The translations under genes and the position numbers were made by a program. Positions 6,356 to 52,162 of a stretch of DNA of 64,000 nucleotides are shown here, one piece after another. The stretch comes from Rariglobus hedericola (GTDB lineage: Bacteria > Verrucomicrobiota > Verrucomicrobiia > Opitutales > Opitutaceae), in assembly GCF_007559335.1 (NCBI RefSeq), contig NZ_VMBG01000002.1:1170501-1234500 (forward strand), given 5' to 3'. Numbering within the stretch: position 1 is the stretch's first letter; every line of letters begins with the position of its first letter. The notes beneath the pieces are model-generated. The model had not been told where the DNA came from, searched no databases, and saw only the letters and a program-made list of their open reading frames with translations.

Positions 6356-6480
6356 GTGGAACCCAAGAGTTGCCACAATGGGGCAGGGGATGGCACGAAA
6401 AAACCGGCGCTACGCGGTTTATGTAAGGCGAAATGTGTGCGGAGTTGCGTTTGTCTAATGCGGAGGCACGCTCCGCCGCC

Positions 6481-6960
6481 ATGCAATCGCACGAGGTCCT
6501 GAAGGAGGTCTTGAAGCAAACGAGCGCCAAACAGATCGCCGCCGACATGGGGCTGTCGCTTTCGTTAATTTACAAATGGACGGAGTCGCCGGCTGACGAC
6601 GCCGGCAGTGGCGCGAGCAACCCGCTGGACCGTATCGATCAGTTGTTGAAGAGCACCGGTGATCGCCGCATCGCCCAATGGGTCTGCGAACGGGCCGGAG
6701 GCTTCTTTATCGCCAATCCGGCGCCCAAACCGCATCCGTTTCAGTTAATTCCGATCGCGAACGAAATCGTGCAGGAGTTCGCCGATATGCTGGCGGTGAT
6801 CGCCGTGGCATCCTCCGACAGCAAAATCACCAAAGACGAGGCGAAGCAGATCCGCCGCCGCTGGGAAGAGCTGAAAAGCGTGACGGAGGGTTTTGTTCAC
6901 GCTTCCGAGCTGGGGAACTTCTCCGCGCTCAAAAATGAGCTCGAAAACAATCAGTCCTGA
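6481..6960 (+). CDS. CII-like helix-turn-helix protein
   Basis: A 159-residue protein whose N-terminus (HEVLKEVLKQTSAKQIAADM, then GLSLSLIYKWTE) reads as a helix-turn-helix resembling phage CII-type regulators. The rest (LDRIDQLLKSTGDRRIAQWVCERAGGFF and a helical C-terminus) also resembles that family. I chose the ATG at 6481; an in-frame ATG at 6433 would add 16 residues not needed by the domain. There are no phage genes nearby, so a chromosomal regulator is more likely than a prophage remnant. The target is unknown. It is divergent from sucC and upstream of the sigma-54-linked porin, but neither position proves a target. Confidence 0.6.
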   Translation: MQSHEVLKEVLKQTSAKQIAADMGLSLSLIYKWTESPADDAGSGASNPLDRIDQLLKSTGDRRIAQWVCERAGGFFIANPAPKPHPFQLIPIANEIVQEFADMLAVIAVASSDSKITKDEAKQIRRRWEELKSVTEGFVHASELGNFSALKNELENNQS

Positions 6961-7121
6961 GCGGTTTTAGGTTAAAATTGGGATAAGATTAGGATGAAAA
7001 TTCATCATAAGGGTGCGTGATAGGCGTAGGTCCACCTGTCGATTTACCTACAGAAACCAGTGTTTTGAGCCGTAAACGGGCAGGCGCGTGGGCGGGGTGA
7101 TGTTAATTGGAGCTTGCAGAA

Positions 7122-7138
7122 TTGGCAGGCAAGTTGCT
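7122..7138 (+). promoter_or_regulatory. Candidate sigma-54 (-24/-12) promoter for the porin gene
   Basis: TTGGCAGGCAAGTTGCT fits the RpoN consensus TGGCACG-N4-TTGCW: GG and GC are separated by exactly 10 bp and the TTGCT half is perfect. A start about 12 bp downstream of the GC would give a leader of about 70 nt before the ATG at 7219. No clear NtrC enhancer site was recognised upstream, though the stretch from 6961 is AT-rich and includes the palindrome GATGAAAATTCATC. Confidence 0.6.
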
Positions 7139-7218
7139 GAAGTCGGTGCCGGGAGTGCCTTGTATGAATAAAACCCATGCGAGGCCCTTGCCGACCTACA
7201 CATCAACAAACACAAGCA

Positions 7219-8202
7219 ATGATCAAAAAACTCACTGGTTTGGCGTCCATCGTGGCGCTCGCATCCGTCGCTCAGGCGGAAGTTAAGATTAACGAAAACC
7301 TTTCGCTCGATGGTTACGCCATCGGCTCCTACTCGTCCGTCGAGGGTGCTGCCGCTCCGGGCCAGACCACGAACGACACCTTCCTTGACAGCGGCAGCCG
7401 CCTGTTCGACTCCGTCAAAGTTGCCGTCAACGGCACCTACGGTGACTTCAGCGGCAAAGTCAGCGTTCTCCTCCAGAGCGTGAACAACACCAGCAACGAG
7501 TCGGGCGGCCTCCTCGATGCTTACCTTACCTACACCGCTGGCTCCCTCGCTATCACCGGTGGTAAGTTCAACAGCTGGCTCGGCTACGAGTCCTTCGACT
7601 CGCCGAACAACGCTTTCATCAGCTACGGCCTCTCTGGCTACGTCGCCAACTACGCGACTGGCGCCAAGGTTGAATACATCACGGACACCCTGTCCGCTGG
7701 CGTTTCCGTTCGTGACTCCCTGACCGCCGGCGACGGCTTCTACCAGGGCGACGGCGACTTCTCCGACAACCTCGGTTACGAAGCCTACGTCCTCTACTCC
7801 GGCATCGACAAGCTCACCCTGTTCGCAGGCGCCGGCTTCGGTGACCTCGATGGTGGCGACCTCTCGACCTACAACGCTTGGGCCAGCTACGCGTTCACCG
7901 AGAAGTTCTCCCTCGCGCTCGAATACGCCAAGACTGATGACTCCACCGCCGCTGTTTTCGCGGGTGACGTCACCAACTCCTGGCTCCTTCAGGGCACCTA
8001 TGTCGTCAATGACTCCGTTTCTGTTTCCGGTCGCGTGACCGCTCAGGACACGAAGGCCGGCGACGGTCTCGGCTACGGTGTTGCTTCGACCTACACCATC
8101 ACCGAGAACTTCGCGGTTAAGGGCGAAGTCACCAAGACCGACTTCAACAATGGCGCTGGCGACGTGTTCACCTACGCCATCCAAGGTTTGTTCAAGTTCT
8201 AA
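7219..8202 (+). CDS. Outer-membrane porin-like beta-barrel protein
   Basis: A 327-residue exported protein. The start at 7219 gives a clean signal peptide (MIKKLTGLASIVALASVAQA) cut before EVKINENLSLDGY. The mature part alternates short hydrophobic and polar stretches rich in Gly, Tyr, Ser and Asp, ends in Phe (FTYAIQGLFKF), and lacks transmembrane helices, as expected for a beta-barrel porin (OmpL/bbp2-like). The terminal Phe is the usual BAM recognition residue. It sits immediately upstream of urtABCDE and has a sigma-54-type promoter like urtA, so a role in letting urea or other small nitrogen compounds cross the outer membrane is a reasonable inference. The solute itself is unproven. Confidence 0.8.
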   Translation: MIKKLTGLASIVALASVAQAEVKINENLSLDGYAIGSYSSVEGAAAPGQTTNDTFLDSGSRLFDSVKVAVNGTYGDFSGKVSVLLQSVNNTSNESGGLLDAYLTYTAGSLAITGGKFNSWLGYESFDSPNNAFISYGLSGYVANYATGAKVEYITDTLSAGVSVRDSLTAGDGFYQGDGDFSDNLGYEAYVLYSGIDKLTLFAGAGFGDLDGGDLSTYNAWASYAFTEKFSLALEYAKTDDSTAAVFAGDVTNSWLLQGTYVVNDSVSVSGRVTAQDTKAGDGLGYGVASTYTITENFAVKGEVTKTDFNNGAGDVFTYAIQGLFKF

Positions 8203-8224
8203 TTTTTTGGTCTAACCAAAAAAT
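8202..8224. repeat. Perfect inverted repeat at the porin stop codon
   Basis: ATTTTTTGGT-CTA-ACCAAAAAAT: 10-bp arms, 3-bp loop, beginning on the last base of the porin stop codon and lying 21 bp before a GC-rich terminator. It may be an mRNA 3-prime stabilising hairpin or a protein site. Confidence 0.6.
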
Positions 8225-8245
8225 CGGAATTCTACTCATTGCTAG

Positions 8246-8275
8246 GGCCGGGGCCTAATCGCCCCGGCCTTTTTT
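8246..8275 (+). terminator. Rho-independent terminator of the porin gene
   Basis: GGCCGGGGC / GCCCCGGCC with loop CTAATC, followed by TTTTTT. It separates the porin transcript from urtA, consistent with each having its own promoter. Confidence 0.93.
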
Positions 8276-8312
8276 GTGCCTGAATAGGACGACTATACAT
8301 TTTTTCCTCAAG

Positions 8313-8330
8313 TTGGCAAAGCGGGTGCTA
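8313..8330 (+). promoter_or_regulatory. Candidate sigma-54 (-24/-12) promoter for urtABCDE
   Basis: TTGGCAAAGCGGGTGCTA has GG-N10-GC spacing and the TTGGCA half of the RpoN consensus; the -12 half is GTGCT instead of TTGCT. An AT-rich tract (TATACATTTTTTCC) lies just upstream. Initiation about 12 bp past the GC would leave a leader of about 60 nt, which contains a small GTCGC/GCGAC hairpin. Nitrogen control is the common situation for urea transporters. Confidence 0.55.
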
Positions 8331-9659: not shown

Positions 9660-9722
9660 AATTAGCCAATCGGTTTGTGCCATCAGGCACAGGCCTTGCT
9701 AGCAGTCCCGTTCATACGGGAG

Positions 9723-9756
9723 GAGCGGCTCCTTCACAGGAGCCGCTCTTTTTTTT
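9723..9756 (+). terminator. Intra-operon terminator between urtA and urtB
   Basis: GAGCGGCTCC / GGAGCCGCTC (10 bp, perfect) with loop TTCACA and eight T. It lies between the receptor gene and the permease gene of one operon, so partial termination is likely. Confidence 0.9.
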
Positions 9757-9786: not shown

Positions 9787-11502
9787 GTGCGCACTTACAT
9801 CCGGCTGATTTTCACCACTCTTACGCTCTGGCTTGCTGCCAGCAGCTCTCTCTCGGCCGCAGAACCACGCGCCACGTTGGTGGAGGCGATGCTGGCCGAT
9901 AACGACGCCCGCAAGATCGAGTTGATCACTTCCCTTGCCGGGGAGGTCGATGAATCGATCAAGCCGCTGTTGATCGCATGGCGCGAAGACGGCCTGTATC
10001 TTTATGAACCGTCTGGCGCCACTCCGGTGCCGGTTCAATTGACTGGTGAAAAGGATGCCGATGATGCCCGTGCCGCGGTTCGCGTTGATACCGGTGCTCC
10101 GCTGGTGGATGCCGAGGGCAAACCGGTCCATCTCGTGGCGGGCGATCTCAACGCAGTAGAGCATACGTCCATGCTCCGGCGTGCGATGAAGGGCGTGCTT
10201 GATCTGATCGATATCGGATCTCCCGACGCCAAGAAGCGCCTCCAGGCGATCCAGACTATCGGCTTTGCGCAGGAGACGGATAAGATCCCTGCGTTTCAAA
10301 AACGCCTCGCCATCGAGGAAAATTCAAAAGTGCGCCGTGCGCTGCGCGAAGCCATTGCGGTCACGCAACTCAAGGATCCGAGCGACGCGGTGAAGCTGGC
10401 GGCGGTCAAGGAGCTTAAGGAACTCCATTCGCTTTCCAGCTACGATTTGATCCGCACGGCCATGCGCGAGGCCGACGCGGCAAAATCCACCGAGCTCGCG
10501 ACCGAGGCCAAGGCGGCGCTCGTCGCGATCGACAATCACAAGTCCAACATCAACTTTTTTGGCACTCTTTTCCGGGGACTCAGCTTGGGAAGCATTCTGT
10601 TGATCGTGGCCATCGGCCTCGCGATTACCTTCGGCCTGATGGGTGTCATCAACATGGCGCACGGTGAGATGATCGCGATCGGTGCCTACACCACTTACCT
10701 CGTCGAAAATATTTTTGGCGCCGGTATCACGATTCCATTTTTCGGATTCAGCCTCGCGATACCGGGCATGAATACGACGGGGGCTTTTTATCAGACCTAC
10801 TTTCTGTTCGCGCTGCCGTTGAGTTTTCTGACGGCCGCGGTGGTCGGGATCGGCCTTGAACGCAGCATCATTCGTTTTCTTTACCGCCGCCCGCTGGAAA
10901 GCTTGCTCGCAACATGGGGTGTTTCGCTCCTGCTCCAGCAAGGTCTCAAGCTTATGTTTGGCTCGAATAATGTGCAGGTCAGCAGCCCGAGCTACTTGAG
11001 CGGCAACTGGACTGTTAACGATATTATCTTCGGCTGGAATCGCGTGTTCGTGATCGGTTTCGCCGGACTGATCGTATTCGGCGTGTGGTTGATTCTCACC
11101 AAGACGCCCCTAGGTTTGCTGATCCGTTCGGTGATGCAGAACCGCGGTATGGCTTCCTGTATGGGCGTGCGCACAGAACGTGTGAACATGCTTACCTTCG
11201 GTCTGGGCAGTGGTCTCGCCGGCCTCGCCGGAGCGTTCATCAGCCAGATTGGCAACGTCGGTCCATCGCTTGGCCAGAACTACATCGTCGACTGTTTTAT
11301 GACGGTCGTGGTGGGCGGCGTGGGCAATCTCGCCGGCACGATCTATAGCGCGCTTGGCATCGGTCTGGTCGATCAGTCGTTGCAGCAGATTTTGCTCAAT
11401 CCCGTGCTCGGCAAGATTCTCGTGCTCGTGGCGATCATTCTGTTCCTGCAATGGCGTCCATCGGGTCTGTTTGTGACCCGAAGCCGCAATCTCGACGATT
11501 GA
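9787..11502 (+). CDS. urtB: Urea ABC transporter, permease UrtB
   Basis: Inner-membrane permease of the urea importer. The 571-residue protein has two parts: a signal-like N-terminus plus a soluble region (about 25-260) and a LivH-type permease (about 265-565) with the landmark VINMAHGEMIAIGAYTTYLVE. The long N-terminal extension is normal for UrtB and separates it from LivH. The start is GTG at 9787, which leaves the hydrophobic leader RTYIRLIFTTLTLWLAASSS intact. Continues the operon after the terminator-like hairpin. Confidence 0.95.
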   Translation: MRTYIRLIFTTLTLWLAASSSLSAAEPRATLVEAMLADNDARKIELITSLAGEVDESIKPLLIAWREDGLYLYEPSGATPVPVQLTGEKDADDARAAVRVDTGAPLVDAEGKPVHLVAGDLNAVEHTSMLRRAMKGVLDLIDIGSPDAKKRLQAIQTIGFAQETDKIPAFQKRLAIEENSKVRRALREAIAVTQLKDPSDAVKLAAVKELKELHSLSSYDLIRTAMREADAAKSTELATEAKAALVAIDNHKSNINFFGTLFRGLSLGSILLIVAIGLAITFGLMGVINMAHGEMIAIGAYTTYLVENIFGAGITIPFFGFSLAIPGMNTTGAFYQTYFLFALPLSFLTAAVVGIGLERSIIRFLYRRPLESLLATWGVSLLLQQGLKLMFGSNNVQVSSPSYLSGNWTVNDIIFGWNRVFVIGFAGLIVFGVWLILTKTPLGLLIRSVMQNRGMASCMGVRTERVNMLTFGLGSGLAGLAGAFISQIGNVGPSLGQNYIVDCFMTVVVGGVGNLAGTIYSALGIGLVDQSLQQILLNPVLGKILVLVAIILFLQWRPSGLFVTRSRNLDD

Positions 11503-11567: not shown

Positions 11568-12728
11568 ATGCCTTCACTTTCCACCCGCCACAAAATCGAG
11601 CTGATCGCCGTCGGCGTGATCGCGTTGTTTTTCATCGTGATCTTCCCGCTGCTCAATGCCCACGGCATGGTCAGCAACTTCACGATTAATCTTTGGGGCA
11701 AATACCTCTGCTACGCGCTCCTCGCGATCTCAGTCGATTTGCTCTGGGGTTACACCGGCCTGCTCAGTCTTGGCCAGGCGCTCTTCTTCAGTTTGGGCGG
11801 TTACATGATGGGCATGTATCTCATGCGCATGATCGGTGAGCTCGGCCAATACAAGAAACCGATTCCCGACTTCCTCGTGTTCCTCGGTTGGACGGATCTC
11901 CCGAAATTTTGGGTTCCGTTTTCGAGTTTCCCTTTTGCCGCCGCGATGATCCTGCTCCTGCCGGGCCTTCTGGCTTTGGTGTTTGGTTTCCTCGCTTTCC
12001 GGTCGCGAGTGAAGGGCGTTTATTTCTCCATTCTTACGCAGGCTCTCACGTATGGCGCGTCGCTGATGTTTTTCCGCAACGACATGCTGATGGGCGGCAA
12101 CAACGGCTTCACGGATTTCAAGTTTATCCTCGGCTATGATCTGCGCGATGCCGTCACGCAACGCGGTCTGTTTATTGCCACGGCGGTGGTGCTGCTGATC
12201 GTTTATGTCGGACTTCGCGTGCTCAGCTACACGAAGTTCGGCTTGGTTCAGAAGGCCATCCGCGACGGAGAAAATCGTGTGCTCTTCAGCGGCTATGCGA
12301 CTGCGCATTTTAAACTCTTTATTTTCCTCATCGCCGCTCTGATCGCTTCCATTGGCGGTGCGCTTTACGTTCCGCAGGTTGGCATCATCAACCCGTCCGA
12401 GATGACGCCGGACAAGTCCCTTGAAGCCGTCGTCTGGTGCGCGGTGGGCGGACGAGCCACGCTGATCGGTCCGATCATCGGCGCTATTGGTGTCAACTCG
12501 CTGAAGAGCTGGGCCTCCCGCGCGGCCCCCGACTACTGGCTCGTTATCCTTGGCGGTATGTTTGTCATCGTCGTGCTTTTGTTGCCCGGCGGCATCGTGA
12601 GCATTCCCGCACGCCTCAAGGCACTCTGGCAGCGGTTCAATAAAAAGCCTGCGGAGCCCGAACCGCCTAAACCTGCCGCTCCTCCGCAAGAACCCAACGT
12701 GACACCCGCTTCCACTCCATCCCTCTGA
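11568..12728 (+). CDS. urtC: Urea ABC transporter, permease UrtC
   Basis: Second, LivM-type permease subunit. The 386-residue protein is mostly hydrophobic. It contains [20 protein letters not shown] and the cytoplasmic loop that contacts the ATPase ([17 protein letters not shown]). The last 25 or so residues are a Pro/Ala-rich tail ([14 protein letters not shown]) of no clear function. Six bases separate its stop from urtD. Confidence 0.95.
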
Positions 12729-12734
12729 TACGCC

Positions 12735-13505
12735 ATGACCCAGCCTAAATACATGCTTACGGTCGAGGGCGTCTCGAAGACCTACGACGGTTTCAAGGCC
12801 ATCACCGACCTGAATTTCTATCTCTTCGAAGGTGAACTGCGCACCGTCATCGGTCCGAACGGTGCCGGTAAATCCACCTTCTTCGATCTCATCACCGGTC
12901 GCGCCAAACCCGACAAGGGCAAGATCGAGTTCGGCATGAACACCGACCTCACCAAGATGAACGAATACGAGATCAACCGTCTCGGTATCGGCCGCAAGTT
13001 CCAGACGCCCTCGGTTTTCACCGAGCACACGGTTTATAACAACATCGTGCTCTCACTCGTCGGCTCGCGCGGCGTGTTCGCATCTATCTTCAAGCGCCTT
13101 TCCTCCACCGAGCGCGATCGTATCGACGAATTGCTCAAGTTGGTCCGTCTTGATACCAAGCGTGATTGGAAAGCCGGTATGCTGGCCCACGGAGAGAAGC
13201 AGTGGCTCGAGATCGGCATGCTCCTCGCCCAAGAGCCCAAGATTCTCTTGGTGGACGAACCCGCGGCGGGCATGACCGACGAGGAGACGCATCGCACCGG
13301 CGAACTCCTCATTTCGCTCGCCGGCAAGCACAGCATTGTCGTCATCGAGCATGACATGACTTTTGTTAAGCAGATCGCCCGTGACGGCCAGGTCACGGTC
13401 CTTCATCAAGGTAGTGTCTTGTGCGAAGGAAAATTCGATGCTGTTCAATCCAATCCGAAAGTCCGCGAAGTCTATCTCGGCCGCGGAAAAAGCGGCGGAA
13501 AATAA
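12735..13505 (+). CDS. urtD: Urea ABC transporter, ATPase UrtD
   Basis: LivG-type ATP-binding subunit of the urea importer. The 256-residue protein has Walker A GPNGAGKST, the UrtD-type signature HGEKQWLEIGMLLAQ in place of a canonical LSGGQ, and Walker B ILLVDEPAAGMTDEE. KFQTPSVFTEHTVYNNI is typical of UrtD. It would pair with UrtE as a heterodimeric motor. Twelve bases separate it from urtE. Confidence 0.95.
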   Translation: MTQPKYMLTVEGVSKTYDGFKAITDLNFYLFEGELRTVIGPNGAGKSTFFDLITGRAKPDKGKIEFGMNTDLTKMNEYEINRLGIGRKFQTPSVFTEHTVYNNIVLSLVGSRGVFASIFKRLSSTERDRIDELLKLVRLDTKRDWKAGMLAHGEKQWLEIGMLLAQEPKILLVDEPAAGMTDEETHRTGELLISLAGKHSIVVIEHDMTFVKQIARDGQVTVLHQGSVLCEGKFDAVQSNPKVREVYLGRGKSGGK

Positions 13506-13517
13506 TACGCGCTCCCC

Positions 13518-14276
13518 ATGACCACGGAACCCGTTTCACTCACTTCTCCCAGCGCCATCACGACGCCTCCCTTGCTTCAGGTCACCAATGTCGAGACCGA
13601 CATCGGTGGCTCGCGCATCCTTCGCGGGGTGAGCCTGGAGGTGCGCGCCGGCGAACTCGTCGCCCTGATGGGGCGCAATGGTGTCGGCAAGACGACCACG
13701 CTGCGTTCCATCACCGGCGTGCGCGGCATCCGCGCCGGCACCATCACACTTGATGGCAAACGCATCGACAAACTCTCCATCGATGCCCGCGCCCGGGCCG
13801 GCATCGGTTATGTCCCGCAAGGCCGTGATATTTTCCCGCACCTGACGATTGAGGAAAACCTTCGGGTCGGCCTGGTCGTCCACGGACGCAAGGGCACGGA
13901 GGCGAAGGATGCGCTTGAGCGGGTATTCACGCTATTCCCTGTCCTCAAGGAGATGCTGTCCCGCAAGGGCGGCGTGCTTTCCGGCGGACAACAGCAACAG
14001 CTTGCCATTGGTCGCGCGCTCCTGACCAAGCCGAAGCTCCTCATTTTGGATGAGCCGACCGAAGGCATCCAGCCGTCGATCATCGACCTGATCGGCGACA
14101 CGTTAAAAAAGCTCAAGAACGAGGGCGAACTCTCCATTCTCCTCGTCGAGCAATACGTGGATTTTTGCCGTGAGATATCCGACCGCTTTTACGCGATGGA
14201 TCGCGGTGCGGTGACGATTTCAGGCCCGATTTCCGCACTCACCGACGAAGTCGTTAAAGAGCACTTGCAGGTGTAA
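13518..14276 (+). CDS. urtE: Urea ABC transporter, ATPase UrtE
   Basis: LivF-type ATP-binding subunit, 252 residues. Walker [10 protein letters not shown], signature [16 protein letters not shown], Walker [36 protein letters not shown] fits UrtE. The N-terminus has a 15-residue Ser/Thr/Pro-rich extension before the core domain. It is the last transporter gene; ureA begins 59 bp later, so transport and hydrolysis could be one transcript. Confidence 0.95.
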
Positions 14277-14972: not shown

Positions 14973-16739
14973 ATGCCTCTTAAGCTTACCCGCCGCCAAT
15001 ATGCCGAGATGTTCGGCCCCACCGTCGGTGACCAAGTCCGCCTTGCTGACACCGAGCTCTTCATCCAAGTGGAACGCGACCTCATTGCCGAGGGCGGCGG
15101 TTATGGTAACGAAATCAAGTTCGGCGGCGGCAAGGTGCTGCGTGACGGCATGGGACAGTCGCCCACCGCCACCGATGCAGAATCGCTCGATCTGGTGATC
15201 ACCAACGCGCTGATCCTTGATGCGAAGCTCGGCATCATCAAAGCCGACATCGGTATCAAGCACGGTCTCATCGTGGGTATCGGGCATGCCGGTAATCCCG
15301 GTATTCAGCGTGGCATCGGTTCGGTTTATCCCGATCCGAAGACGGGCAAAAAAAATCCGATGATCGTCGGTGCCGGCACCGAGGTATTGGCGGCCGAAGG
15401 CAACATCATCACGGCGGGCGGCATCGATACGCACATTCATTTTATCTGCCCTCAACAGATCGACGAAGCGATCAGCTCAGGCGTCACCACCATGATCGGC
15501 GGTGGCACCGGCCCCGCTCACGGCACGCTCGCCACGACCTGCACGCCGGGACGTTGGAATCTCCATCGCATGCTCGAAGCCGCCGAGGCTTATCCGATGA
15601 ATCTCGGCTTCCTCGGCAAGGGGAACTGCGGCACCGCCCAACCGCTCCGCGATCAAGTCCTCGCCGGCGCCATCGGTCTCAAGCTCCACGAAGACTGGGG
15701 CACCACGCCTGCTGCCATTGATACGTGCCTCGGTGTTGCCGAGGAGTTTGATGTGCAGGTCGCCATCCATACCGATACGCTCAACGAAGCCGGTTTTGTC
15801 GAGGACACGCTGGCCGCCTTCAAGGGCCGTGCGATTCACACTTACCATTCCGAAGGCGCGGGCGGCGGGCACGCTCCCGATATCATTCGCGTATGTGGCG
15901 AGGCCAATGTCCTCCCGTCTTCGACCAACCCGACGCGTCCGTTCACGGTTAACACCATTGATGAGCATCTCGACATGCTGATGGTGTGCCATCACCTCGA
16001 TCCGAAGATTCCCGAGGACGTGTCGTTCGCCGAGTCGCGCATCCGTCCCGAGACGATTGCCGCCGAGGATCGTCTGCACGACATCGGTGCGATCTCGATG
16101 ATGTCGTCCGATTCACAGGCGATGGGCCGCATCGGTGAAGTCATCTGCCGAACCTGGCAGACGGCGCACAAGATGAAGATGCAGTTCGGCCCGCTCACGC
16201 ATCCTTCGCATCCGGCCGCGGACAACTATCGCGCGCTGCGTTACGTGGCCAAATACACGATCAACCCGGCGATCACGCACGGCATGGGGCACATCATCGG
16301 CTCGGTGGAAGTCGGCAAGCTGGCGGATCTCGTGCTGTTTAAGCCTGCGCTCTTCGGCGTGAAACCCGAGCTGATTCTCAAGGGCGGGTTCATTGCGTGG
16401 GCGAACATGGGTGATCCCAATGCGTCGATTCCCACCCCGCAGCCGATGTTCTATCGTCCGATGTTTGGCGCAACCGCGCGTGGGGTTGCTTCGACCAGCC
16501 TGACCTTTGTTTCGGAAGCGGGTTTGCGCGACGGTGGGCTGCAGGAGCTCGGCCTCAAACGCCGTCTCGAAGCGGTGAAGAGCTGCCGCAGCGTGCGCAA
16601 GACCGACATGGTTCACAACGATGCCATGCCGAAGATCGTGGTCGATCCGGAGACCTATCACGTCACCGCCGACGGCGTGCACCTGACCTGCGAGCCGGCA
16701 AAAGTGCTGCCGATGGCCCAACGGTATTTCCTATTTTAA
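14973..16739 (+). CDS. ureC: Urease alpha (catalytic) subunit
   Basis: Nickel-dependent hydrolysis of urea to ammonia and carbamate. I chose the ATG at 14973 ([20 protein letters not shown], canonical); longer in-frame starts overlap ureB and have no family support. All active-site residues are visible: His154 and His156 (DTHIHFICP), carbamylated Lys237 (GLKLHEDWG), His266, His292, Cys339-His340 of the flap and Asp380. The protein is 588 residues against about 570 usually; the excess lies near residues 111-130 ([18 protein letters not shown]), before the conserved GTEVLAAEG. Confidence 0.98.
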
Positions 16740-16748
16740 TCGGCTTGT

Positions 16749-16806
16749 TGCAGGAGTGGCTTTACGGCGCGATGTTTCTGAACCGCGGCGTAAAGCCGCT
16801 CCTGCA
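16749..16806. repeat. REP-like palindrome between ureC and ureE
   Basis: 23-bp arms at 16749-16771 and 16784-16806, based on TGCAGGAGYGGCTTTACG, with two mismatches and a 12-bp loop. No T-run follows, so it is unlikely to be a simple terminator. The sequence style is that of dispersed extragenic palindromes. Confidence 0.7.
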
Positions 16807-16820
16807 CCGCGAACTTCGTC

Positions 16821-17291
16821 ATGATTTTGGTCTCAGCTCCCGTAATGTCTCCGGCGCTCGCGCTCCCCGTGGTGGAGCTGCGTGCCGAGCGGCGCACGTT
16901 GATGAAACGCCTGTGGCGAGGTGTGGCGGCGGACGGGACGGAATTCGGTTTCGAACTGGCTTCACCGCTCAAGCATGGAGACACGTTTTTTCAATCAGAC
17001 ACCGTGCGTTACGTGGCCGTGCAGGAATCGGAGCCCGTGCTGGAGATTCTGATGGGCGAACTGCCGGCCTCGGCAACAGCGGGAATCGGCTGGGCGGTGG
17101 GGAACTTGCACCTGGAGTTTTCATCCGAGGCGACGCGGTTACTCACGCCGGACGAACCGGCCGCCCGTCAGTTGTTCGCGCGGATTCAAATCGATTATAC
17201 GCCGACTACCGCGGTATTTCGCCCGGGCCGGTTTAAACGCAGTGTCAGCACACCTCTCGTCGATGAGCTCGGCCCCAGTCACAAGCACTGA
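16821..17291 (+). CDS. ureE: Urease accessory protein UreE-like
   Basis: Nickel-delivery metallochaperone for urease maturation. The 156-residue protein has the UreE layout: an N-terminal peptide-binding-like domain (about 15-80), then the metal-binding domain around AVGNLHLEF, which corresponds to the GNRH motif. The distal metal-binding HDH segment and the long His-rich tail of Klebsiella UreE are absent; only SHKH remains at the end. The position between ureC and ureF supports the call. An alternative start is ATG 16845. It overlaps ureF by 29 bp. Confidence 0.82.
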   Translation: MILVSAPVMSPALALPVVELRAERRTLMKRLWRGVAADGTEFGFELASPLKHGDTFFQSDTVRYVAVQESEPVLEILMGELPASATAGIGWAVGNLHLEFSSEATRLLTPDEPAARQLFARIQIDYTPTTAVFRPGRFKRSVSTPLVDELGPSHKH

Positions 17292-17982
17292 CGCACGCTG
17301 GCTGGTCGGCCTCTTGCAGGCGGGTGATTCCTATTACCCGACGGGTGCTTACGCGCATTCGTTTGGGCTGGAAGGATTGGTTCAGTCCGGCGTGGTGCGC
17401 GATCGGACAACGCTGCGGGAGTTTGTCTTTTTATCGGTGCTGCCAAATCTGCGACAGGCCGAGTTGCCGCTCGCCGCACAGGCGTATGCGGCATTTGAGC
17501 CGACGGCTCCGGACTGGGCGAAGGTGGGTGAACTCTGTGTGCTGGCCCATGCGTTGAAGAGTGCGAAGGAAGCGCGCACTGCGACCGAGAATATCGGGCG
17601 TCAGCGGGCCGAACTCACCTCGACGCTTCATGCGCATCCTTTGGCGCAGGAGTATCTGAAACGTGCGGCCGAGGCCGGATGGCCGTTTTCATCGGCGATT
17701 TCAGCCGCTTTGGAGGGACGCGTGTTGGGCGCTCCATTGGAAGCGGTGCTGGTGGGAGTGATGTATTCATCGGTCGCCGGTCTGCTGGCGGCGTCGATGA
17801 AGGTGCTGCGTATCGGTCAGAATGCCACGCAGACACTGCTCACCGAGGCGCTGTCGCAGGCGCCCGCTTTGATTGATGCAGCCTCGGTCGTGCCGATGGA
17901 TGAGATCGGTTGGTTTAACCCGTGGCTCGATATCGCGGCGGCTCGCCATGAGACCGCGGATGGCCGCATGTTTATTTCTTAA
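17263..17982 (+). CDS. ureF: Urease accessory protein UreF
   Basis: Scaffold of the UreDFG maturation complex that gates nickel transfer. The 239-residue protein contains [19 protein letters not shown], the diagnostic N-terminal motif. The rest is helical. The start is uncertain: ATG 17263 or GTG 17242, seven residues earlier, both overlapping the end of ureE. Four bases separate it from ureG. Confidence 0.93.
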
Positions 17983-17986
17983 AACT

Positions 17987-18610
17987 ATGTCTTCTCGTGC
18001 TCCTCGTATCGGCATTGGTGGTCCGGTTGGTTCCGGCAAGACGATGCTCTGTCTCAAGCTCTGCCAGCAGTTGCGCCTGCGTTACTCGATGGCGGTCGTG
18101 ACCAACGATATCTACTGCTCCGAAGATGCGCAGTTTCTCGTTCAACACAGCGCGCTGCCGGCGGAACGCATCGCGGGTGTAGAGACGGGCGGGTGTCCGC
18201 ACACGGCGATCCGTGATGACACGACGATGAACGAGCAGGCGTGCCGTGCGCTGGAGACGAAATTTCCCGACCTCGATCTCGTGCTGGTGGAGAGTGGCGG
18301 CGACAATCTCACGGCGACGTTTTCGCCGGAGCTGGTCGATCAATTCATCTACGTGATCGACGTGGCCGAGGGAGATAAAATCCCTCGCAAGGGTGGCCCG
18401 GCCATCCGGCACAGCGATCTGCTCATTATCAACAAAATCGATCTGGCTCCGCTAGTCGGCGCGGATCTCGGCGTGATGGACCGCGACTCCAAGATTCAGC
18501 GTGGGGCGAAGCCGTTTTTGTTTTGTGATCTGAAGCGTGAGCATAATCTCGACGCCGTCATCGCATGGATCGAGCGCGAGGTGTTGTTTGCACGTAAAGC
18601 GAAAGCCTGA
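17987..18610 (+). CDS. ureG: Urease accessory GTPase UreG
   Basis: GTPase that powers nickel insertion into urease. I chose ATG 17987, which gives [19 protein letters not shown], the expected N-terminus with the P-loop GPVGSGKT; longer frames overlap ureF. The 207-residue length is standard. [12 protein letters not shown], the Cys-Pro-His nickel-binding motif, and the guanine-specificity motif NKID ([15 protein letters not shown]) are visible. The stop shares one base with the ureD start (TGATG). Confidence 0.97.
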
Positions 18611-19443
18611 TGGCGCAGTTTCACGGACAACTCTTTCTGCGGGCCGAGGCGCGGGCCGACGGCCAAACGGCGATCGGTGCGCAGGCGTTTCGCGCGCCGT
18701 ATCATGTGAGCAAACCTTACTGGGATACAGAGACGCGCACGCTGCTGGTGCAGGTCGTGAATCCGACGGCGGGGATTTTGTCGGGCGACCGGTTGGAGTC
18801 GTCCGTTGAAGTGGCCCCCGGCGCGGCGATGTTGCTGACGACGCCGAGTGCGAGCCGGGTTTTTAAAATGCGTGAAGGCGAGGCGAACAGCACGCAGCGG
18901 TTTGTCGTCGAAAGCGGCGGCTGGCTGGAGGTGTTGCCCGAGCCCGTGGTGCCGCATCGCGGAAGTGTGTTTCACCAACGCACCGAGTTGATCGTCGCCG
19001 CGGACGGGGCGGCGTTTTATGCCGACCTGCTTCTGCCCGGGCGCGTCGCGCACGGCGAAGCGTGGGAATGGAAAAAACTCGTGCTCGAACTCGATGTGCG
19101 GCGCGACGGCGAGCGGTTGTTGCACGAACGCTTCGAGCAGGATGGGGCGGGATTGCGGGCGCTGGCGGCGTTGGCCGGAGCGGGCGAGGGCGCGTGTTTT
19201 GGTAACGCCGTGGTGATCGGTCCGGGACTCGGTGCCGAGACGGCGCCAGCCTGGCGTGATCAGTTGCATGCGCTGCACACCGACGGCGTGTGGCTGGGCG
19301 CGAGTCAGCTGCGGCTTGGCGGCGGCTGGAGCATCAAGTTTGTCGCGCCGGACGGCGTGAAGTTGAAGCAGACGTTGAACGCCATCCGGCGAATTTTAAC
19401 GCCGTTGTGCCCGCACCTTGCGTGCGATGCGCGGAAGCTTTAA
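18610..19443 (+). CDS. ureD: Urease accessory protein UreD (UreH)
   Basis: Binds apourease and recruits UreF-UreG for nickel loading. The 277-residue protein contains the family core NPTAGILSGDRLESSVEVAPGA followed by TTPSASRVFKM. It is translationally coupled to ureG through a one-base stop/start overlap. It is last in the ureABCEFGD order, whereas many operons start with ureD. Its stop codon overlaps the stop codon of the convergent hupE-like gene. Confidence 0.94.
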   Translation: MAQFHGQLFLRAEARADGQTAIGAQAFRAPYHVSKPYWDTETRTLLVQVVNPTAGILSGDRLESSVEVAPGAAMLLTTPSASRVFKMREGEANSTQRFVVESGGWLEVLPEPVVPHRGSVFHQRTELIVAADGAAFYADLLLPGRVAHGEAWEWKKLVLELDVRRDGERLLHERFEQDGAGLRALAALAGAGEGACFGNAVVIGPGLGAETAPAWRDQLHALHTDGVWLGASQLRLGGGWSIKFVAPDGVKLKQTLNAIRRILTPLCPHLACDARKL

Positions 19444-51999: not shown

Positions 52000-52095
<96 letters not shown>

Positions 52096-52162
52096 ACTTT
52101 TTTTTCAAGCCGACGGCGGCGGGTAAACCCGCTATGGCCGCCGGTCTGGGCAAGACGCCTGC

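Follow-up and report, generated by a model that had tools for sequence, protein, structure and literature searches.

Predicted sigma-54 promoters of a porin gene and the urea transporter genes in Rariglobus hedericola and related Verrucomicrobiota

The locus considered in this study raises the question of whether a porin gene and the urea transporter genes located behind it are switched on together, and what the porin would then carry. It lies within a window of 64,000 nucleotides of the Rariglobus hedericola genome (contig NZ_VMBG01000002.1, positions 1,170,501 to 1,234,500 of the forward strand), to which all coordinates given without a locus name refer. Urea transporter (urt) genes are commonly under nitrogen control. 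The original prediction assigned one sigma-54 promoter of the -24/-12 type to the porin gene and another to urtA, and proposed that the porin is an outer-membrane channel for urea or small amides, induced together with the transporter. In our analysis there is strong support for sigma-54 control of both units: rpoN is present, the sites are conserved, and amtB-glnK is preceded by the same kind of site. It is quite probable that the locus represents a nitrogen-scavenging urea cluster read by sigma-54 RNA polymerase. The sites and the genes that they precede are as follows:

7122-7138, forward strand: predicted -24/-12 sigma-54 promoter of the porin gene, TTGGCAGGCAAGTTGCT, GG-N10-GC, 16.5 bits
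7219-8202, forward strand: porin gene, Pfam BBP2 (PF07642, E 2.2e-12), signal-like N-terminus
8313-8330, forward strand: predicted -24/-12 sigma-54 promoter of urtA, TTGGCAAAGCGGGTGCTA, GG-N10-GC, 14.1 bits
8400-9659, forward strand: urtA, urea-binding periplasmic protein (NCBIfam TIGR03407, 495.8 bits, cut-off 492.75)

Both sites have the positions and the GG-N10-GC spacing originally described, and the distances to the start codons, predicted to be about 80-70 bp, are 81 bp to the porin ATG (7219) and 70 bp to the urtA ATG (8400). The porin start rests on homology; the open reading frame (ORF) has its first ATG further upstream, at 7177. Scores are from an RpoN weight matrix set up by hand, whose maximum possible score is 19.9. 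The pattern itself is not more frequent than chance would give: TGGCA-N7-TGC with up to one mismatch was found 62 times in the window, against 66 expected, and TTGGCA-N7-TGCT occurs in five copies genome-wide, against 12 for the reversed pattern. Thus, the letters of the sites carry no proof alone, and the proof has to come from position and conservation. Without mismatch, TGGCA-N7-TGC is present in three copies in the window, two of which are the porin and urtA sites. The same two are among the five exact genomic copies of TTGGCA-N7-TGCT; of the others, one precedes amtB-glnK, and the remaining two (L056 and L057), having no visible nitrogen gene beside them, were dropped as background.

In the family, UrtA was detected in 24 of 60 genomes (E <= 1e-100), and a porin homologue lies directly upstream of urtA in 17 of 23 extended loci; L041 and L053, which are among the others, end at a contig edge, and L054, one of the 17, is truncated inside the porin. 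In all 17 scorable porin upstream regions, the window included, the best site has the GG-N10-GC arrangement and lies 81-171 bp upstream of the assumed start; in 11 regions it scores at least 11 bits. In four loci with no porin found upstream (L045, L046, L047 and L049), a site of 11.7-15.5 bits precedes urtA itself. Across 19 family loci, sites of at least 11 bits have a density of 2.09 per kb in three gene gaps (23 in 11 kb), against 0.045 per kb elsewhere (22 sites in the remaining 489 kb, counting both strands).

A census queried by the porin sequence alone, and therefore blind to both the site and urtA, gave 74 loci, whose titles name Verrucomicrobiota groups with two exceptions called just 'bacterium'. 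In 61 of them urtA follows the porin within 600 bp; three of these start inside the porin (L212, L254, L257) and one is too short (L240), leaving 57 testable. GG-N10-GCT is present at -45 to -142 of the porin in all 57, and GGCA-N8-GCT in 56, against 15% and 0.65%, respectively, of 122-base background tiles. As many as 54 score at least 8 bits and 44 at least 11 bits, a value reached by 1.55% of 260-bp background tiles. One of the census loci, L204, is from the complete genome of IMCC26134, where the porin-urtA pair has a 15.1-bit site. Each census site is the top matrix hit of its region, and the loci, related by descent and in many cases also contained in the genome sets, are not independent trials.

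In the genus (13 genomes, including the one studied), all ten porin-slot upstream regions that are visible, with the window counted, have a site, scoring 12.8-17.3 bits; these ten sites share all seven core letters, and their flanks are 48% identical. In one genome (G063), about 130 kb separate a porin pair from urtA, and a site precedes each of the two. Phylum-wide, urtA was found in 32 of 288 genomes (E <= 1e-90); five were already covered, and a single locus was taken from each of the other 27, leaving out a further one in G244. With L166 truncated at urtA, 26 loci were scored and read by eye, and 23 have a site of at least 11 bits before the first gene, which is a BBP2-type porin in eight (weak matches in L185 and L188), another protein in ten and urtA in eight. 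The porin-urtA order, whose conservation the original prediction proposed to test, is widespread, and the porin-side site, judged by these comparisons, is old and widespread.

The machinery for such control is encoded in the genome. There is one rpoN match (E 5.1e-58), and rpoN was found in 59 of the 60 family genomes. An exact sigma-54 pattern lies 93 bp upstream of amtB-glnK (cluster C1:1436499), which suggests nitrogen control. Each of the two P-II genes of the genome has amtB beside it, and of these two clusters only the one named is preceded by an exact site. The sigma-54 activator domain matches 12 places in the genome, although five of these matches are weak (E no better than 1e-6); five of the 12 were compared with NCBIfam. 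As for ntrC, the NtrC model is the best, end-to-end match of the activator at C1:653299, but its 493.6 bits fall below the cut-off of 558.6.

Several observations weigh against the proposed control or its link to nitrogen. None of the five activators compared reaches the curated NtrC cut-off, the four others being farther from it than C1:653299, and 39 upstream regions show no enrichment of canonical NtrC dyads (6.87 matches on average, against 6.76 in shuffles). No site of at least 8 bits was seen upstream of glnA, nor within about 400 bp of a second cluster, amtB-amtB-glnK, so that the predicted nitrogen regulon would be partial. Some porin-side sites in the family are weak, the lowest scoring 4.5 bits (L039), and three of the 26 phylum loci have no 11-bit site (none of 9.5 bits in L179 and L184, 9.9 only in L180). 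Finally, genome G068 of the same genus has a homologous porin with a 17.3-bit site (L129, 2587-3697, reversed strand) and no urtA hit, although it is 99% complete.

Candidate enhancers were also considered. A perfect dyad before amtB, TGCACGTCTGACGTGCA, was rejected as an NtrC enhancer and is read as a terminator, because a T run follows it and it is positioned past the end of the upstream gene. Among k-mers upstream of the promoters in 28 regions, two 6-mers occurred in 15 and 13 regions (shuffle maximum 12) and one 8-mer in six (shuffle maximum 5), 7-mers staying under their maximum; nothing firm emerged from them, the top 6-mer being CGCCGC. About 130 bp before the porin site, at 6989-7007, there is a dyad ATGA-N7-TCAT, complete in four of the 28 regions, all from the same genus (the window, L126, L130 and L134), with closely similar copies in L125 and L127. 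It is a candidate for an enhancer, or else may be the end of the preceding gene.

The region behind the porin has additional elements, one of which, the site at 9684, was missed in the original prediction:

8244-8275, forward strand: intrinsic terminator after the porin gene, a stem-loop (8244-8271) with a T tail
9684-9700, forward strand: third sigma-54-like site, between urtA and urtB, 14.1 bits
9707-9756, forward strand: conserved dyad CCCGTTCATACGGG (9707-9720) and terminator hairpin (9723-9748) with a T run
9787-11502, forward strand: urtB, permease (NCBIfam TIGR03409, 370.4 bits, cut-off 250.3)

Conservation had been expected of both predicted promoters, and this held for the porin side but much less for the other one. 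In the genus, the urtA-side site is present in seven of eight loci showing the region (core identical, flanks 64%), the exception being L134 (G060); in the porin-urtA gaps of 60 named loci, a site of 11 bits was found in four. It is thus mostly a trait of this genus, uncommon outside it. The intrinsic terminator following the porin would explain why urtA has a promoter of its own here. A terminator-like hairpin was found in 21 of the 60 gaps, and all four urtA-side sites are among those 21 (Fisher p 0.012, uncorrected for kinship); in the other 17 the hairpin is present and the second site absent.

The third site scores at least 8.5 bits in eight of nine genus loci and is weak in L124. The dyad CCCGTTCATACGGG begins 6 bases past it, has an invariant loop and is followed by a strong terminator; the spacing between site and dyad is the same in eight of the nine loci and 2 bases longer in L134. 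A 17-base pattern around the dyad has one copy in each of nine of the 13 genus genomes and none in the four in which urtA was not found. Eight of the nine copies sit in the urtA-urtB gap; the copy in G064 adjoins unrelated genes, and the urtA-urtB gap of that genome has an altered version of it. Covariation, judged from only nine related sequences, includes two-sided changes at five of 11 pairs of the terminator stem and at one of five pairs of the dyad. The first helix of the gap, which overlaps part of the site, is poorly supported (64% of cells paired), and all Rfam matches in the gap are far under their gathering scores.

It is an even matter whether this element serves differential expression only, its hairpin and terminator lowering the amount of permease mRNA relative to that of the binding protein, with the third site weak or vestigial. 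Hairpins with T tails follow urtA in many of 22 family gaps, and in the genus the terminator is located 3' of the third site, so transcripts from the latter should mostly stop before urtB. What speaks against it is that the -24/-12 letters are kept in the genus together with the distance to the dyad; moreover, outside the genus the third site, where present, often lies past the terminator (e.g. L032, L034, L036 and L053), as expected for a urtB promoter, and there it could serve urtB. We propose only tentatively, considering it rather unlikely, that the gap encodes a sigma-54-driven small RNA or attenuator. Such a transcript would run from about 9711, a position within the dyad and 12 bases from the GC, to about 9756; only some 45-50 nt long, it would appear when nitrogen is short and either act in trans or adjust urtB. 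NrsZ is an example of a nitrogen-regulated small RNA. Another one, GlnZ, is reported to derive from the glnA 3' end (PMC9731577), and the small-RNA reading would share with it an RNA near the 3' end of a nitrogen gene and a terminator.

A separate problem is what passes through the porin. Its assignment to the BBP2 barrels is sound (PF07642, 47.3 bits against a cut-off of 26.2), and an AlphaFold2 model based on 42 sequences has 16 long strands and a mean predicted local distance difference test (pLDDT) score of 84.8. Among the 50 best PDB structure matches, general porins predominate (Vibrio, Burkholderia, Rhodopseudomonas, Neisseria and enteric bacteria); identities are 13-18%, and template modelling (TM) scores are about 0.5-0.7. 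The model thus indicates a porin by fold, and the fold is silent on which solute is carried. A profile of the porin had no match among PDB sequences at E up to 1, and a plasmid search with the porin gave no hit. In comparisons within the genus, the porin evolves much faster than UrtA, and it is tandem-duplicated in three genomes (G063, G070 and G071; L126, L127 and L125). In L224 (3501-5847), a porin of the same family with a 9.7-bit site adjoins not urtA but ureG- and ureD-like ORFs, identified by eye against the UreG and UreD of the window.

From gene order and the shared promoter, an outer-membrane urea channel would be the best reading of this protein. For the urea or small-amide channel of the original prediction, induced together with the transporter, the barrel and the position before urtA hold, and its selectivity is what we infer. 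A somewhat improbable alternative is that the promoters are real and nitrogen-linked and the porin, made in larger amounts when nitrogen is short, lets small nitrogenous or other solutes through in general and is not tuned to urea. The porin of G068 described above, kept in a genome with no urtA hit, fits such a channel, as do the similarity of the fold to general porins and the sites of porins lacking urtA within 600 bp, nine of 13 of which have one at 11 bits (several of the 13 being truncated at contig ends). It would, however, leave unexplained why urtA follows in 61 of the 74 loci found by porin sequence, and why a second, unrelated family occupies the same slot.

This second family comprises the ten non-BBP2 first genes of the phylum loci. 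Its proteins have about 275 residues after trimming of over-long starts, are 28-57% identical to the first member and have no Pfam match over the cut-off. Weak porin hits below the threshold, seen in two of the ten, suggest that they are barrels as well, as do their signal-like start and terminal aromatic residue. A member also occupies the porin slot of G060, which belongs to the genus of R. hedericola; it is 51% identical to the L187 protein and has no significant similarity to the porin of the window, and its site, TTGGCAGGCGGGTTGCT, differs from that of the window in two spacer letters. That a single slot behind one type of promoter is filled by two unrelated families suggests a common task at the outer membrane; far more tentatively, the two could be interchangeable urea porins.

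The closest precedent is fmdCABDEF of Methylophilus methylotrophus, which is induced by formamide and urea and repressed by high ammonia (PMC10781810). In that cluster, a urea/amide porin is paired with such a transporter. The Methylophilus cluster comes with a formamidase, and the one described here with urease; here there is a sigma-54 site each for the porin, urtA and the urtA-urtB gap. The fmdC porin of comammox Nitrospira belongs to another phylum, and its cargo is an annotation. A comparative study links sigma-54 to control of the bacterial exterior, with transport and envelope genes having promoters of the -24/-12 type, as here; the terms urea, porin, Opitut and Verrucomicrobi do not occur in its main text (PMC3162934). 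Among the papers listed in searches of mostly open literature there was no earlier account, for Verrucomicrobiota, of a porin-urt locus controlled by sigma-54, which is weak evidence of absence.

That the -24/-12 matches are a product of chance is scarcely credible, since the sites, although their pattern is not enriched in the window or the genome, are kept at fixed places while the flanks change. The remaining genes of the cluster are:

11568-12728, forward strand: second permease ORF of the transporter, assigned from position alone
12735-13505 and 13518-14276, forward strand: two ATP-binding cassette (ABC) ATPases of the transporter (Pfam ABC_tran)
14988-19443, forward strand: downstream urease genes for the alpha subunit, UreF, UreG and UreD (Pfam)

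Membership in the Urt urea ABC transporters follows from UrtA and UrtB, both of which exceed their curated NCBIfam cut-offs. Between the divergent sucC and the porin gene there is a small helix-turn-helix gene (6433-6960; Pfam Phage_CP76, 29.1 bits), kept beside sucC in the genus loci and several family loci. On the reverse strand, antisense to the urease alpha gene, a match to Rfam 5_ureB_sRNA (15138-15468, 84 bits) may be due to conservation of the coding sequence and not to an RNA. A bacterial small signal recognition particle RNA is located at 52000-52098 on the forward strand.

In the proposed mechanism, an enhancer-binding activator sensing nitrogen shortage would switch on the promoters of the locus together with amtB-glnK. 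Transcription from 7122 would yield porin mRNA, mostly ended at the intrinsic terminator (8244-8271), and the promoter at 8313 would restart it for urtA, the putative third site at 9684 lying within the urtA-urtB gap. Urea would cross the outer membrane through the porin and be captured in the periplasm by UrtA; the remaining Urt proteins would bring it into the cell, and the urease encoded downstream would cleave it.

It is rare for the uptake of urea across the outer membrane to be ascribed to a particular named porin. The present analysis adds promoter evidence from across the phylum, a second family of predicted barrels that can fill the porin slot, the arrangement of promoters and terminators, and the third element. 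Through gene order and a shared nitrogen-type promoter, BBP2, a Pfam name without a substrate, and a family that Pfam does not recognize are both tied to urea import across Verrucomicrobiota.
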